A stretch of 41,598 nucleotides of DNA from Geobacteraceae bacterium (GCA_013377075.1 JACABD010000012.1:33839-75436), one strand, 5' to 3'; shown: positions 34,341 through 41,274, counted from the stretch's first letter. Numbers and translations are program-made. The notes: generated by a model from the letters alone, not told the origin.

Positions 34341-35339
34341 ATGAAAAACATCTCCATCATAATACCTGTTTACAACGCTGAACTGACGATAGAGTCCCTC
34401 TGCAACACCCTGATAGACAGCTACTCACAAAGATACGTGCTGGAAATAGTTCTTGTCAATGACAACAGCCAGGACAGCACCGATATAATCTGCAGAAGAC
34501 TTCAGGAAAAGTTCAGTCAGGTCATTACCTACATCAGACTAGCCCGAAATTTCGGCGAGCATAATGCCGTAATGGCCGGCCTACACAGTGCTCACGGTGA
34601 CTTCTGCGTAATCATGGATGATGATTTTCAAAACCCCCCTGAAGAGGTTGAAAACCTGATTTACGCAGCTGAACAAGGATACGATACTGTCTATGCCAGT
34701 TATTCCAGAAAAAATGACAATATTTTAAGAAACCTAGGAAGCTTTGTTAACGACAAGATGGCAAATTTCATCCTCCGCAAACCGGCAGATCTCTATCTTT
34801 CCAGCTTCAAGATAATGAACAGGTTCCTTGTTAACGAAGTCATCAAATATACCGGGCCGGACCCATATATCGACGCAATAATACTGAGAAGCACGTCAAA
34901 TATCGGCAGCATTGAGGTCAGGCATGATAAACGCAGACATGGACACTCCGGGTATACCCTCAAAAAACTGATCTCCCTCTGGGGCAATATGGTGCTTAGC
35001 TACTCCCTTATTCCACTCAGGGTTCTAGGTTTTGTAGGGATGATCATGACCTTAATCGGCATTTTTACCGCTGGTGCTGCAATGTTTGACCAGATAATGC
35101 CGAACAGAGTAGATCCGAGCGAAATTGAAACACTTACTGCCGTTACATCTTTATTCAGAGGGATTCAACTGCTCGCCATCAGCGTTGTTGGCGAATATGT
35201 CGGAAGGATCTACCTTGCCCTGAACAGCGACCCACAGTTTATTGTAAGAGAGAAACTCTCTGCTCAGCGTAAAGCAGAGATAAGATCAATCCATAAGGCA
35301 ACTGGTTACAGTCATGAGATCAGTAAAAACGTCATCTAA
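34341..35339 (+). CDS. Family 2 glycosyltransferase, polyprenyl-phosphate type (ArnC/DPM-like)
   Basis: The 332-residue protein has an N-terminal GT-A domain (ISIIIPVYNAE, LVNDNSQDSTD, LARNFGEHNAVMAGL and the metal motif DDDFQNPPEE) and two C-terminal membrane helices (about 230-255 and 268-292). This is the architecture of enzymes that load a sugar from a nucleotide donor onto undecaprenyl phosphate at the inner face of the membrane. The donor is probably the deoxysugar nucleotide made by the following genes. It is the first gene of the operon and overlaps the next by 26 bases. Confidence 0.9.
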   Translation: MKNISIIIPVYNAELTIESLCNTLIDSYSQRYVLEIVLVNDNSQDSTDIICRRLQEKFSQVITYIRLARNFGEHNAVMAGLHSAHGDFCVIMDDDFQNPPEEVENLIYAAEQGYDTVYASYSRKNDNILRNLGSFVNDKMANFILRKPADLYLSSFKIMNRFLVNEVIKYTGPDPYIDAIILRSTSNIGSIEVRHDKRRHGHSGYTLKKLISLWGNMVLSYSLIPLRVLGFVGMIMTLIGIFTAGAAMFDQIMPNRVDPSEIETLTAVTSLFRGIQLLAISVVGEYVGRIYLALNSDPQFIVREKLSAQRKAEIRSIHKATGYSHEISKNVI

Positions 35340-36783
35340 AATTTGCCCAATAAAAGCCCCTCTGAACCTACGCCTCTGTTGTCTTGGATCAGCTGACCAT
35401 AGAGACATATTCAGATCAGTGAATCTAAAGACTTCCCTGCACTCAGACCGACACCTCGAAAGGTGGGTTACGTCCAGACTTCTGACACGAAGTCTCAAGG
35501 TAGGGACGATCTCGCTAAATGAGACCAGAGGATGGTCTATTAACCAAGAAACCGGTGACATCGGCCATGACTCCGGCAGGTTTTTCTCAATAACCGGGGC
35601 TAAAGTACGGCACCGGTCAGAAACATTTGAGCTTGAGTGGGATCAGCCAATAATAGATCAGCCGGAAGTCGGCATACTTGGGATTATTGCCAAGAAAATC
35701 AATGGCGTTCTGCACTTCTGCCTTCAGGCAAAAGAAGAACCTGGAAACATCAACTCAGTACAATTATCTCCAACCCTTCAGGCCACCTACAGTAACTACA
35801 CCCGTGTCCATGGAGGAACACCTCCAAAATTCATAGAGTATTTTACAGATCCAGCCAGAGGACGCATTATATTTGCAAAACTACAGACCGAAGACGGCGG
35901 CAGATTCCTATACAAATCAAACCGAAATATGATTGTGCTGGTAGAAGAATCCGAACTTGAGTATCTTCCAAATGAGTTCATATGGGTAACTCTGAGGCAG
36001 GTTGGTAAACTGCTACAACGGGACAACCTTGTGCATGCCTGTACAAGAAGCATTATTGCTGCACTGGCACTTTCGACATCCTCTTTAGGTCAAAAAGCTG
36101 CCAATAGCAGAAAACATGATCACGGTACTTTTCATGACAGCTCCCTGGCCTCTATCTTCCAGTGGATTGACAACCGCAAAGCCACCAATCACTTCCAGGT
36201 CAGGCGAACAGCTTTAAACAGCCTTAAAGAGTGGGGAATGGATCGTGACGGTTCATTCTCACATGAACATGGTCGATTTTTCCGGGTAGTCGGCCTAAAT
36301 GTGGAGTCAAAAGGGCGTGAGGTTACTGCCTGGAACCAGCCAATCCTTGACAGCCCCGGAACCGGAGTAATCGGACTCCTCACAAAGATGGTAGATGGTG
36401 AGTGTTTTTTCCTGATGAATGCAAAAGCAGAGCTTGGGAACAGAGGAATCATCCAGATCGGCCCCACTGTGCAGTTTACGCCAGGTAACTATATCGGAAA
36501 TGAAAAACTTCAAAAGCCATTTCTCTTCGAAGAATTCTACAAACCGGAAAGATTTCCAACTATTCATCAGAGTCTTCAGAGTGAGGAAGGAGCAAGATTC
36601 TACAATGAATCACATATTCACAGAATCCTTCAGCTACCCCAGTCAGAAGAGCTTACAATTCCTGATGATTTTCACTGGGTCTCGCAGACAGACTTAAATC
36701 TCATGATAAATCTTGGTGAGATGGTAAGCTCCAGCGCAAGAAGCATTATCTCGCTTATGATCTCAAACGAGTGCAGTGAATGA
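35314..36783 (+). CDS. NDP-hexose 2,3-dehydratase (EvaA/TylCVI/SpnO family)
   Basis: The 489-residue protein is built of two homologous halves (about 50-255 and 275-485), as in this family. The first half has GDIGHDSGRFFSI, WDQPIIDQPEVGILGI, QAKEEPGN, QLSPTLQATYSNY and RVHGG; the second repeats it as HEHGRFFRV, WNQPILDSPGTGVIGL and NAKAELGN. It removes the 2-hydroxyl of an NDP-4-keto-6-deoxyhexose, giving an unstable 3,4-diketo-2,6-dideoxy intermediate. The family is best known from macrolide and glycopeptide antibiotic sugars. The first 40 residues have no counterpart I recognise. It overlaps its neighbours at both ends. Confidence 0.9.
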   Translation: MRSVKTSSKICPIKAPLNLRLCCLGSADHRDIFRSVNLKTSLHSDRHLERWVTSRLLTRSLKVGTISLNETRGWSINQETGDIGHDSGRFFSITGAKVRHRSETFELEWDQPIIDQPEVGILGIIAKKINGVLHFCLQAKEEPGNINSVQLSPTLQATYSNYTRVHGGTPPKFIEYFTDPARGRIIFAKLQTEDGGRFLYKSNRNMIVLVEESELEYLPNEFIWVTLRQVGKLLQRDNLVHACTRSIIAALALSTSSLGQKAANSRKHDHGTFHDSSLASIFQWIDNRKATNHFQVRRTALNSLKEWGMDRDGSFSHEHGRFFRVVGLNVESKGREVTAWNQPILDSPGTGVIGLLTKMVDGECFFLMNAKAELGNRGIIQIGPTVQFTPGNYIGNEKLQKPFLFEEFYKPERFPTIHQSLQSEEGARFYNESHIHRILQLPQSEELTIPDDFHWVSQTDLNLMINLGEMVSSSARSIISLMISNECSE

Positions 36784-38432
36784 ACATGCTCAAGGAGCAG
36801 GTCAGTTTAAAGCTGCACCAGCAACATACCAGCCAGACCAAAGAAATATCTCCAAAACAGGATATTCTAATCATTGTTATCCTCCTTGCAGTAGCACTCT
36901 GCATCCGCCTCTACTCCCTTAAGTTTTTCCATGTGATCTCAACCGACGGCACAAGTTATGCTCTTACGGCCAGAGCATTCGCACAAGGAGATCTGCATGG
37001 TATCGGCACATATGGATTTTACCCTGTACTAATTGCAGCAGCCAATTTTTTCATAAACGACCTTGAAACCTCAGGCAGGATAATATCTGTTATTTTCGGA
37101 ACTTTTATTGTCCTTCCTCTCTATCTGCTTGGGAAATCCATCTTTTCAAGAAATGTTGCCATTGCGGCATCATTGGTTTCCACAGTATGGCCACCTTTTG
37201 TGTCTTCATCATGTGAGGTCATTACTCAAGCAACCCATACAACTCTACAGCTCGCCTCTATCTGCCTTATCTGGTACACGTTCCGAAAACCATCTGCAAT
37301 AAAAGGCATATGTGCAGGGATCTTAATCGGGCTCACCTACCTCACAAGGCCGGAAAGCATTCTCCTTGTACTGGCAATGCCTTTAGCTCTGGCCGTTCTT
37401 GAGCCTGAAAAGCTCGTAGAGAGGAAACGCTCTATCACCTTCTACATTTTCGGCTTTACTATCCCTTTTCTGGCAAACATGATTCTTGTGCATCACATGA
37501 CCGGCGAATGGCAACTCTCTGCAAAGACTGACAGCGCCCTGAACGATGCCCTGAGCTACTACCTTAATCTTCCGGATTTAAATTATGTCCCGGGATATGA
37601 ACCCAAAAGCTATGTTGAAATACTTAAAGAGCATCCTGGATTCATCTGGCACAACCTTGCTAAGAACCTGAAAATGCTCTGGAAGAGTCTGCTCCCGCCA
37701 ACTATATGGGTCATGTTTGCCGTCGGGTTTCTCAGTGGAGGATTCAAGCGTGAAAGTAATATAAAAAGGCTTTTTCTTTTCGCTACCATTACACCGGTAG
37801 TGGTTCTTGTTATTTTTTACTACATTGACAGCGGCTATATTCAGGCATATCAACCCTTCATTTTCCTTTTTGCAGCCTATGGTTTAACGACTACAGGCGA
37901 CAAAATAAAAGTTTTTATTTCTGGCAGTCTCAAGATGTCAACCATCCTCCAACGAACGCCACTACTTCTACCAGTTGCCATCATCTATGCAGCAATTCTT
38001 TTAGCGCCTCAGATAAGAAAGAACACTACAGATGCAGAGTACTGGCCATATCAAGATGACGGAAGGCGATCGGAAAAACATATAGGCAAACTCCTCAAAG
38101 CAAAGCTTCCACCTGGAAAGATAATGACAAGGTGGGCAAGGATCGCTTTTTATGCTGAAAGAGAGTGGGTAAATGTCCCGGTAGCATACTTTGATGAAAT
38201 AATTAAAACAGCCCGTGAAAACAAAGTCAGATTCCTGATTGCAGATGGACTACTCTATGAAAACCGCCCCGGCTTTGGGCTTGAAATTTTCAAGTACTTT
38301 ATGGACAGGAATATCCCATCAGGGCTGCATATAAATACAGATCCATCACTCAGGATAAAAGGGCTAAAACCAGTTCTCATCTACAAAAGCCCAAGAAGCA
38401 TCGGCGTGATCGTCTATGAAATCCCATATTGA
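36780..38432 (+). CDS. Membrane GT-C glycosyltransferase (PMT/ArnT-like)
   Basis: The 550-residue protein has about ten or more membrane helices. After the first helix comes FHVISTDGTSYALTARAFAQGD, where GT39/GT83 enzymes keep their catalytic acidic residue; the corresponding Asp is followed by Gly here. A periplasmic C-terminal part (about 420-550) follows the last helix. Such enzymes move a sugar from polyprenyl phosphate to an acceptor on the periplasmic side. The acceptor may be lipid A, core sugar or protein; sequence does not say. It starts in an ATGA overlap with the dehydratase gene, and its end overlaps the oxidoreductase gene. Confidence 0.82.
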   Translation: MNMLKEQVSLKLHQQHTSQTKEISPKQDILIIVILLAVALCIRLYSLKFFHVISTDGTSYALTARAFAQGDLHGIGTYGFYPVLIAAANFFINDLETSGRIISVIFGTFIVLPLYLLGKSIFSRNVAIAASLVSTVWPPFVSSSCEVITQATHTTLQLASICLIWYTFRKPSAIKGICAGILIGLTYLTRPESILLVLAMPLALAVLEPEKLVERKRSITFYIFGFTIPFLANMILVHHMTGEWQLSAKTDSALNDALSYYLNLPDLNYVPGYEPKSYVEILKEHPGFIWHNLAKNLKMLWKSLLPPTIWVMFAVGFLSGGFKRESNIKRLFLFATITPVVVLVIFYYIDSGYIQAYQPFIFLFAAYGLTTTGDKIKVFISGSLKMSTILQRTPLLLPVAIIYAAILLAPQIRKNTTDAEYWPYQDDGRRSEKHIGKLLKAKLPPGKIMTRWARIAFYAEREWVNVPVAYFDEIIKTARENKVRFLIADGLLYENRPGFGLEIFKYFMDRNIPSGLHINTDPSLRIKGLKPVLIYKSPRSIGVIVYEIPY

Positions 38433-39402
38433 CCCATCTTCTGTCAGAATAGGTCTGCTTGGCTATTCCGACATAGCCACAAGGAAGTTTATTCCCGCGA
38501 TTCAAAAATGTAAAAACTCCTGTCTTAAGGCAATCTCCACCCGAAACCCCGAAATAACCCGCAGCAAGTCACCTGAAACACCAGTACTGTCCCACGAAGA
38601 GCTTCTCGCCTCGCCTCTCATCGATCTTGTTTATCTCTCTCTGCCGAATCATCTGCATGAAGAGTGGGCAATAAAAGCTCTTGAAGCTGGAAAACATCTT
38701 ATCTGCGAAAAACCACTCTCCACGTCTCTGGCCTCCTCCCTGAAAATACTGGATGCGGCCAAAAGCAACAAACGGCTGATATATGAAAACCAGATGTTCC
38801 TCTTCCACCCACAGCACGCACTTGTAAAGGCAATGATAAATTCAGGTAAAATAGGCAGAGTCAGGGAACTTCGTAGCGTCTTCGGCTTCCCGATGCCTGC
38901 TGAAGGCAATTTCAGACTCGATCCAGATCAGGGGGGAGGATCCTTTCACGACTTGGCGCGCTATCCGCTCGGAATTGCAGTTTACCTTCTGAACTCCATT
39001 CAAGAGGAATTTCATGGCTGCTCAACGTGTAAAAGTGGCATTAATACGTCGGTCAACGGCGTTACGGTCACAGCTAACAGTGAGCTTTTCTCCTTCTCCA
39101 TCAGCTTCGGACAACAGTACGAAGCTTTCTATGAAATAGTCGGTGAAACCGGTAAAATACGAGTTGAACGGGCTTACACCACGCCTGCCGAACGTGAGAA
39201 CCGGATATTTTTAACAGTTGGCAGCAAAACCAGTGAAACAGTCGTCCCGGCCGTAGACCATTTTCAACTGATGATAGAAGAGATTTCAAATATCATTCTA
39301 ACTGACAGCGATTTCACCCACCTGAACAGACAGGCTGAAATCATTGCAAGGCTTGCGGATCAGATGGAGAAAGGGTGCATGGAGAATAGATATGAATTAT
39401 GA
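38416..39402 (+). CDS. Gfo/Idh/MocA oxidoreductase, probable NDP-sugar 3-ketoreductase
   Basis: The 328-residue protein has an N-terminal Rossmann fold (GLLGYSDIATRKFIPAI), the conserved Lys99 in HLICEKPLS and DLARYPLGIAVYLL in the C-terminal domain. The start resembles that of antibiotic-sugar 3-ketoreductases (SpnN, KijD10), which reduce the product of the 2,3-dehydratase. That dehydratase is two genes upstream, so this activity is likely. Other sugar dehydrogenase functions in the family cannot be excluded. It overlaps the gene on either side by 11-17 bases. Confidence 0.85.
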   Translation: MKSHIDPSSVRIGLLGYSDIATRKFIPAIQKCKNSCLKAISTRNPEITRSKSPETPVLSHEELLASPLIDLVYLSLPNHLHEEWAIKALEAGKHLICEKPLSTSLASSLKILDAAKSNKRLIYENQMFLFHPQHALVKAMINSGKIGRVRELRSVFGFPMPAEGNFRLDPDQGGGSFHDLARYPLGIAVYLLNSIQEEFHGCSTCKSGINTSVNGVTVTANSELFSFSISFGQQYEAFYEIVGETGKIRVERAYTTPAERENRIFLTVGSKTSETVVPAVDHFQLMIEEISNIILTDSDFTHLNRQAEIIARLADQMEKGCMENRYEL

Positions 39403-40519
39403 CGAACCGGTAAAATACTGGGACTACCTCCCTGCATATTTCCGCAACCGGCAGGAAATTCTGAAAATAACTGACGAGGTATTCTCTTCAGGCAGGCTCA
39501 TCCTCGGCAGCCGGGTAGATTCGTTTGAGAAAAACTTTGCGAAGTTCTGTGGCACAGCGTTTGGCATCGGGGTAAACTCCTGCACTGACGCGCTTTTCCT
39601 TGCACTAAAGGCACTTGGCATCAAAGAGGGGGATGAAGTCATTACCGTTTCCAACACGGCTGTGCCAACCGTTGCAGCAATAAGGGCTGCCGGGGCTACA
39701 CCGGTTTTTGTCGATGTAGAACCGGATACATATCTGATGAATACTTCCCTTCTTGAAAGGCTTGTCTCTATCAGAACCCGCTGCATCATCCCTGTGCACC
39801 TCTGCGGACAGGCTGTTTCCATGGGACCTCTTCTGGATATTGCCGCAAAACATGGGTTATCTGTCATAGAGGACTGTGCCCAGGCAGCCGGGGCCAGCTA
39901 CAAGGGAACGCGGGTTGGCAGCTTCGGACAGATTGGCGCTTTTTCCTTCTACCCGACCAAGATTCTCGGTGCATTCGGCGATGCCGGAATGCTGACCACA
40001 TCTTCCGAACAGATTGCCGGACACCTGCGGTGCCTCAGATTCTACGGCATGAAGGGGGAATATTACTCTGAAGAAGAGGGGTATAATTCCAGACTTGACG
40101 AACTTCAGGCAGCCATTCTCGACTTCATGTTGATCGGACTTGAGAAAGAGGTCAGACAGCGACAGATTATTGCTGACAGATACAGTAAAGGGCTTGGAGG
40201 GGTTGGCGACATCTTGCTTCCGGTGACTCAACCAGAAAGGGATCACCGCTATTATCTCTACACAATAAGAACCGGCAGAAGAGATGAACTCAAGAAGTTT
40301 CTCTCCGGTTTCGGCATCGAGGCACGAATCAACTACCCTTACCCGATTCACCTTATGCGAGGTTACGCGATTCTAGGGTACAAAGAGGGCGATCTCCCTG
40401 TAACGGAGAGGCTTGCCGAAGAAATCCTTTCGCTCCCCATGTACGGGGATCTGCCGATGAAACATGTCGACAGGGTTATTAATGCAGTAAAGTGCTTCTT
40501 TGCAGGAGTCGCCTCCTGA
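39392..40519 (+). CDS. DegT/DnrJ/EryC1 PLP-dependent sugar aminotransferase
   Basis: The 375-residue enzyme has the fold-type I features of sugar aminotransferases: GVNSCTDALFLALKALG, VSNTAVPTVAAI, PVHLCGQ, EDCAQAAGA (Asp161) and the PLP Lys190 in SFYPTKILGAFGDAGML. The last motif resembles 3-aminotransferases such as DesV and QdtB/FdtB, though a C-4 enzyme like SpnR is possible. It would put an amino group on the keto sugar. The frame opens at 39344, but the ATG at 39392 with GGAGAA upstream begins the conserved part and overlaps the previous stop by 11 bases. Confidence 0.88.
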   Translation: MNYDEPVKYWDYLPAYFRNRQEILKITDEVFSSGRLILGSRVDSFEKNFAKFCGTAFGIGVNSCTDALFLALKALGIKEGDEVITVSNTAVPTVAAIRAAGATPVFVDVEPDTYLMNTSLLERLVSIRTRCIIPVHLCGQAVSMGPLLDIAAKHGLSVIEDCAQAAGASYKGTRVGSFGQIGAFSFYPTKILGAFGDAGMLTTSSEQIAGHLRCLRFYGMKGEYYSEEEGYNSRLDELQAAILDFMLIGLEKEVRQRQIIADRYSKGLGGVGDILLPVTQPERDHRYYLYTIRTGRRDELKKFLSGFGIEARINYPYPIHLMRGYAILGYKEGDLPVTERLAEEILSLPMYGDLPMKHVDRVINAVKCFFAGVAS

Positions 40520-41274
40520 ACCCCGGTGAGTACAGACAGATGTATGATGTGGAGGAGACCCACTGGTGGTATGTATCACTGCATGAGCTGATCATCCCGG
40601 TTGTGAGAAGTATGAAGGAAGCAACCGGAGATCTTCGCATACTTGATGCGGGGTGTGGAACAGGAAGGCTCTGCGTATTACTGGATGAATTTGGAGCTGT
40701 TTCAGGCTGTGACATTTCAAACGAGGCCCTTGAACTCTGCCGTAAAAGGGGGCTGAGGTCGATTTTTCAGGCTGACCTGAACAGTGTCTCCTTTCGATCT
40801 TCACACTATGACGTCATCACCTCCATAGATACTCTCTATCATCTCGGCATAGATGACGAACTTGCTGTGCTCAGGAAGTTTCATGCTGCCCTCAAGCCTG
40901 GAGGGTCTCTGATCATCAACCTCGTTGCCCATGAGTTTCTTCGCAGTACCCATGACATTGCCGTCCATACCCGCAAACGCTACACCCGCAAAGAGGTGGA
41001 GACCCTTCTTGAAAGCAGCGGCTTCAAAGTCAGTATCTCCAGCTACAGACTCGGTTTTCTCTTTCTCCCCATAGCCGCATTAAGATTAATGAAAAAACTG
41101 CTTGATTTTAACAGCAACCCACAGCTTGTAAAATCAGATGTCACTTCGCCAAACAGAGCTCTGAACCGGCTTCTGCTCTGGGCTGCCAGACAGGAAAACC
41201 GGTTTGTTCTTAAATCAGCTGTTCCACTCGGGACTTCAGTTTTTGTTGTCGCACAAAAGCCGCTTGCCGGATAA
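40516..41274 (+). CDS. Class I SAM-dependent methyltransferase
   Basis: The product, about 252 residues from the proposed start, has motif I LDAGCGTGRL, then GCDISNEALELC and DVITSIDTLYHLG, and a hydrophobic segment near the end (LGFLFLPIAALRLM). The start EYRQMYDVEETHWWY resembles many envelope-sugar and polysaccharide methyltransferases. As the last gene of the operon it may N- or O-methylate the sugar; a metK gene lies nearby but is unrelated in transcription. The start is uncertain: CTG at 40516 overlaps the previous TGA and has AGGAG seven bases upstream; GTG 40492 and ATG 40540 are alternatives. Confidence 0.82.
   Translation: MNPGEYRQMYDVEETHWWYVSLHELIIPVVRSMKEATGDLRILDAGCGTGRLCVLLDEFGAVSGCDISNEALELCRKRGLRSIFQADLNSVSFRSSHYDVITSIDTLYHLGIDDELAVLRKFHAALKPGGSLIINLVAHEFLRSTHDIAVHTRKRYTRKEVETLLESSGFKVSISSYRLGFLFLPIAALRLMKKLLDFNSNPQLVKSDVTSPNRALNRLLLWAARQENRFVLKSAVPLGTSVFVVAQKPLAG

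Follow-up and report, generated by a model that had tools for sequence, protein, structure and literature searches.

Described systems closest to the locus analyzed here come from antibiotic biosynthesis and from the glycosylation of the cell envelope. In the EvaA–EvaB (vancosamine) and SpnO–SpnN–SpnR (forosamine) pathways, as in our operon, a 2,3-dehydratase, an aminotransferase, a ketoreductase, and a methyltransferase are combined on a dTDP-4-keto-6-deoxy sugar. A review reports 2,3-dehydratases from antibiotic biosynthesis only, and mutants of EvaA in E139 and E190 lost activity (PMC8987622). The Arn pathway (ArnB, ArnC, and ArnT), which places L-Ara4N on lipid A, shares with the operon an ArnC-like GT2, a GT-C glycosyltransferase, and an amino sugar donor. 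Three-component glycosylation of the Gtr/Csb type (GtrA, GtrB, and GtrC) has in common with it an inner-face GT2 and an outer-face GT-C. The PMT_2 domain is shared with the PMT/TMTC protein O-glycosyltransferases, and many relatives of the operon have a putative TPR-containing membrane GT-C.

The window, by which we mean the whole analyzed stretch of 41,598 nucleotides from a Geobacteraceae bacterium (GCA_013377075.1, JACABD010000012.1:33839-75436), was confirmed to contain six ORFs with short overlaps on the plus strand at 34341-41274 (Table 1). The six overlapping genes and the family labels given to them in the initial annotation were borne out by ORF calling and by family assignment using Pfam and NCBIfam. 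The aminotransferase likely starts at ATG 39392, with a longer frame reading from TTG 39344, and the start of the methyltransferase is uncertain (about 40492-40540). In the source genome, PF03559 was found in this operon only. The 5' flank comprises a divergent two-component pair of the OmpR/PhoB type, followed by metK and a gene for an OmpA-like protein. The contig (75,436 bases) stops at the end of the window, and thus genes downstream of the window could not be read. No PKS/NRPS scaffold genes were found among the scanned genes neighbouring the operon, as had been claimed for antibiotic scaffolds in general, and Rfam gave no match across the operon region. Scans for sigma-70 promoters (15 promoter-like sites, 10.0 expected) and for terminators (12 terminator-like sites, 6.5 expected) were discarded, as the sites were scattered inside genes and on both strands.

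Table 1. Operon genes (positions in the window) and associated features at other loci (our locus or genome labels, followed by positions where available).
Feature	Location	Strand	Size and family match
GT2, ArnC-like polyprenyl-phosphate sugar transferase	34341..35339	+	332 aa; PF00535, 2.6e-28
NDP-hexose 2,3-dehydratase	35314..36783	+	489 aa; two PF03559 (Hexose_dehydrat) domains, 2.4e-135
GT-C glycosyltransferase	36780..38432	+	550 aa; PMT_2 PF13231, 1.1e-10
Gfo/Idh NDP-hexose ketoreductase, KijD10-like	38416..39402	+	328 aa; GFO_IDH_MocA, 3.8e-19
DegT/DnrJ/EryC1 sugar aminotransferase	39392..40519	+	DegT, 4.5e-107
Class I SAM methyltransferase	40492..41274	+	Methyltransf_11, 2.6e-17
Apparent split dehydratase loci	L085:8837-10390, L102:8651-10266, L103:5447-6999, L105:9878-11436, L109:9866-11484		
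Single-copy PF03559 gene	L110:9806-10633, L111:9896-10663		
Interrupted module GT-C	L044:7422-9131		
Clustered TPR-GT-C-like paralogues, source genome	G000:C44:19093-43712		
Large membrane proteins, Nitrospirota	L102:14386-16815, L103:8904-11345, L105:13303-15792, L101:15892-18147		
B12-binding radical SAM-like protein near the module	L056:2424-3860; also L085, L086, L090, L092, L094, L095, L101		
Small protein upstream of GT2	L044-L050, L053-L055, L057, L059, L061, L062, L064, L066, L068-L074		
Small protein upstream of GT2, Nitrospirota	L085, L089, L101, L102, L103, L105		
Weaker relative of the small protein, source genome	G000:C61:5761-6063 (L134:5743-6069)		

From the gene set, its conserved order, the clade structure of the dehydratases, the conserved catalytic residues, and the presence of RmlB, all of which were directly observed, we infer the structure of the sugar, its loading on a carrier, and its transfer. 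The operon is likely a self-contained module that builds a dTDP-2,6-dideoxy amino hexose, attaches the sugar to undecaprenyl phosphate, and passes it on to an acceptor outside the cytoplasm. The merging of antibiotic-type dideoxy-sugar enzymes with ArnC/ArnT-like carrier transfer, proposed in the initial annotation, was strengthened by the conserved order and the intact catalytic residues.

PF03559 was detected in 33 of the 147 genomes searched, a set that includes the genome of the window. In 32 of these 33, the dehydratase was of the window type, and it was always immediately preceded by GT2 and followed by the aminotransferase (32/32, including the window's own); the GT2 gene adjoins and mostly overlaps the dehydratase gene in all 32. 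The exception, G118, has another type of dehydratase with 36% identity. The methyltransferase was detected in 30 and the ketoreductase in 22 of the 32 modules. The named close relatives are genomes of Geobacter, Geotalea, Geomonas, Citrifermentans, and Pelotalea. A scan of named genomes further retrieved ten Nitrospirota loci with the same order, all with GT2, dehydratase, and aminotransferase and four with the ketoreductase. The flanks of the operon, compared among relatives as ORF families only, differ from genus to genus. The GT2–dehydratase–aminotransferase neighbourhood is therefore more than chance. Of the co-occurrence proposed for all six families, this three-gene core was strict (32/32), the GT-C was variable, and the ketoreductase was optional. 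Neither of two objections that the initial annotation had anticipated, a neighbourhood not conserved in relatives and a dehydratase-like protein lacking activity, found backing, the neighbourhood being strictly conserved and the catalytic residues intact.

In the wider phylum, PF03559 was rare (10/395 genomes), and members outside the bacterial order of the source and its named relatives belonged to a type with 33-37% identity. Most loci of this type encode the dehydratase, then the ketoreductase, and then, where the locus reaches, the aminotransferase, without this GT2. In a tree of 23 dehydratases, built by a quick method and containing one long branch (L108), the GT2-coupled ones fell on one side of a branch with a support of 100, which indicates a single clade apart from the antibiotic type. 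A protein whose sequence pattern resembles that of B12-binding radical SAM enzymes was also encoded near the module at loci of several Geobacterales and Nitrospirota.

The dehydratase, with its two Nudix-like PF03559 domains, matched EvaA with 274 bits, and its E142 and E193, the counterparts of the catalytic pair E139 and E190 in pocket A of EvaA, were invariant in an alignment of 13 sequences. Judged by its sequence, the protein is an EvaA-type 2,3-dehydratase with both catalytic glutamates kept, which agrees with its earlier designation as a 2,3-dehydratase. In several Nitrospirota, the two PF03559 halves look like separate genes, and loci of Omnitrophota and Uhrbacteria have a single-domain PF03559 gene; this form may be ancestral or heterodimeric. 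The best match of the ketoreductase was 3rbv (KijD10) with 141 bits, the next protein scoring 104 bits. Its K99 (EKP) and Y183 align with the positions that we take to be the active-site Lys and Tyr of KijD10, an enzyme that reduces C3. RmlB is encoded elsewhere in the source genome (G000:C65) and was found in 26 of 26 genomes tested; it would supply dTDP-4-keto-6-deoxyglucose, from which the 2,3-dehydratase would remove the C2 hydroxyl to give a 3,4-diketo-2,6-dideoxy sugar.

The aminotransferase would put the amine on this diketo sugar. Its PLP lysine is present (residue 206 of the frame from TTG 39344), and a role as a 3-dehydratase (ColD, E1, SpnQ) was ruled out because the lysine is kept instead of their histidine. 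In profile ranking, DesV (400 bits) and QdtB (373), both known as 3-aminotransferases, scored above perosamine synthase (277), ArnB (222), and DesI (182), with a comparison set that left out SpnR-like 4-aminotransferases. Single-sequence comparison also placed DesV and QdtB above 4-aminotransferases. The enzyme thus appears nearest to sugar 3-aminotransferases, a ranking not decisive for the amination site. The analogy to forosamine, a 4-amino sugar, drawn in the initial annotation was weakened by these scores to the same, not decisive, extent.

The distribution of the ketoreductase gene also bears on the amination site. The module lacks it in 10 of the 32 genomes, and a search for Gfo/Idh elsewhere in the ketoreductase-less genomes returned weak homologues only. 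On the aminotransferase tree, the presence of the ketoreductase changes at least two times on well-supported branches and five times by parsimony, and the orthologous aminotransferase is found both in modules that have it and in modules that lack it, a pattern that would also fit reduction at C4 after amination at C3. As the ketoreductase is optional, the aminotransferase seems to work with or without it; this apparent independence favours amination of the diketo product at C3, with the ketoreductase acting on the remaining C4 ketone afterwards. Amination is therefore most likely at C3 rather than C4. In the alternative order, the ketoreductase would reduce C3 first, and amination would follow at C4. 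The methyltransferase would probably methylate the dideoxy amino sugar. Its predicted structure was good (pLDDT 89), and searching by fold yielded more than 1,400 matches at E <= 0.001, from which no substrate stood out; it resembles many unrelated enzymes, such that its substrate is not assignable by sequence or fold.

The GT2 is the candidate for loading the dideoxy amino sugar on undecaprenyl phosphate. Its best PDB relatives were ArnC structures (133 bits), and a DDD motif is present at residue 93, with two hydrophobic segments towards the C-terminus. These features place it in the polyprenyl-phosphate-sugar type, with ArnC as the nearest solved relative. It scored 163.5 bits against the ArnC equivalog cut-off of 529 bits and, being far below it, is not ArnC itself. 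The source genome encodes no close paralogue (best 32% identity), and no GtrA flippase (PF04138) was found in its assembly, which is 95.5% complete; a flippase other than GtrA would turn the product over.

On the outer side of the inner membrane, the GT-C would then pass the sugar to its acceptor, which would be a glycan or a protein that is secreted or membrane-bound. Asp56 of the enzyme, invariant within VISxDGT, sits in a low-confidence loop of its model. The predicted fold matched OST, PglB, ArnT, Pmt4, and ALG9, with OST enzymes ranking above ArnT; the model was of moderate quality (pLDDT 74, TM-scores about 0.5), the PMT_2 score was modest, and a sequence search for a solved relative gave none. 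A multi-pass ArnT/OST-like fold is thus predicted with moderate confidence. The window-type GT-C was present in 8 of the 32 genomes with the window-type dehydratase and is not conserved as one family. In the close relative G003, it is interrupted: there are two ORFs, and the matched frame contains a single TGA and a single TAA. Loci without the window-type GT-C often encode, after the methyltransferase, a membrane protein of ~600-670 aa that ends in TPR repeats and which we presume from its sequence pattern to be a GT-C of the TMTC kind; in Pfam and PDB searches, only its TPR part was matched. Paralogues of this putative GT-C are numerous in the genomes, and several are clustered in the source genome; their number makes the link to the module suggestive only. 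With the GT-C family varying as well, the GT-C in the operon is not necessarily the enzyme that uses the carrier, or the only one to do so. At some Nitrospirota loci, the methyltransferase is followed by large multi-pass membrane proteins (750-830 aa) that lack annotation; they have one weak YfhO match and no credible family in Pfam and are possibly a further type of GT-C.

The acceptor could be lipid A or the core, with GT2 and GT-C performing an Arn-like modification in which the dideoxy amino sugar replaces L-Ara4N and brings a positive charge. We regard this as rather unlikely; it is a special case of the preferred module that names the acceptor only, and the two estimates overlap. The closest solved relative of GT2 being ArnC, the presence of ArnT among the fold matches of GT-C, the charge that an amino sugar would bring, and the LPS genes in the window are consistent with it. 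However, ArnT ranks below OST enzymes among these fold matches, and many relatives have TPR repeats in the putative GT-C after the methyltransferase. The Kdo/Lpt genes, which the initial annotation had taken as a link to LPS, form a housekeeping block (pyrG-kdsA-kdsD-kdsC-lptB-rpoN) about 11 kb from the operon that does not travel with it in relatives. The lipid A idea therefore gains no support from this block, and these genes were dropped as evidence.

It is improbable that the dideoxy amino sugar is an ordinary building block of O-antigen or exopolysaccharide repeat units, with the operon a fragment separated from a polysaccharide locus, GT2 conventional, and GT-C modifying the polymer. Rare deoxy amino sugars often end up in LPS O-antigens or capsules (PMC8987622), and the other dehydratase type of the phylum occurs with ketoreductase and aminotransferase without this GT2. 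However, the window operon is flanked by housekeeping and regulatory genes (metK, the two-component system, and OmpA) in surroundings that vary by genus, and GT2 is ArnC-like, its two C-terminal membrane segments marking the type that makes polyprenyl-phosphate sugars. Adjacency of sugar and transferase genes serving different sugars, GT2 and GT-C moving a common hexose, is very improbable: neither transferase's substrate can be read from sequence, but the GT2–dehydratase pair persists in two phyla, in contrast to the changing presence of GT-C and ketoreductase.

For the preferred module, a further component may lie directly upstream of GT2, where many relatives encode a small protein of 109-150 aa with an N-terminal membrane segment. 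Strong matches upstream of GT2 were found in 22 relatives and at six Nitrospirota loci, and the family had at least one match in 71 of the 147 genomes. It has a central KPKPRPRAV or KKKRAVL motif and a C-terminal S/G-x-S/A-P-P (RAPP/LSPP), and a dN/dS of 0.16-0.63 shows it to be a genuine protein; Pfam gave no credible match. The protein is absent before GT2 at the window operon, and a weaker relative is encoded in the source genome. A glycosylation system of Geobacterales and Nitrospirota in which interchangeable PMT-like or TPR-bearing GT-Cs attach a polyprenyl-phosphate-linked 2,6-dideoxy amino sugar, produced through the distinct dehydratase clade, to extracytoplasmic proteins, with the small protein as partner or acceptor, is a tentative extension that we hold with low confidence.

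If the preferred reading is true, environmental metal-cycling bacteria use a separate 2,3-dehydratase clade for their own envelope by lipid-carrier transfer, and the operon would be a defined gene set from which new enzymes for dideoxy amino sugars could be drawn. It might also account for surface glycosylation of these bacteria that has so far lacked an explanation. Glycosylation is known for the OmcS and OmcE filaments of Geobacter (PMC9473688); the matches of the named-genome scan included no G. sulfurreducens locus, and thus the operon probably does not explain that glycosylation.

Compared with the vancosamine and forosamine clusters, the operon keeps the EvaA catalytic residues and the KijD10 positions, but it has an ArnC-like GT2 and a membrane GT-C in place of a polyketide or peptide scaffold, and its dehydratase clade is separate from the other, 33-37% identical type. 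Unlike in the PMT/TMTC systems, which use mannose, it would draw on a dideoxy amino sugar as donor, a protein acceptor being only a candidate. It differs from Gtr-type systems in its dedicated sugar genes and in the lack of GtrA in the source genome. In contrast to the Arn pathway, its sugar would arise by the 2,3-dehydratase route; its aminotransferase was not ArnB-like in the ranking, ArnA and ArnD are missing from the operon, and none of its proteins reached an Arn equivalog cut-off. As the initial annotation had held, this gene set matches no system that we could find described in the open-access literature. Each kind of enzyme is known, and we consider their combination a variant of lipid-carrier sugar transfer.
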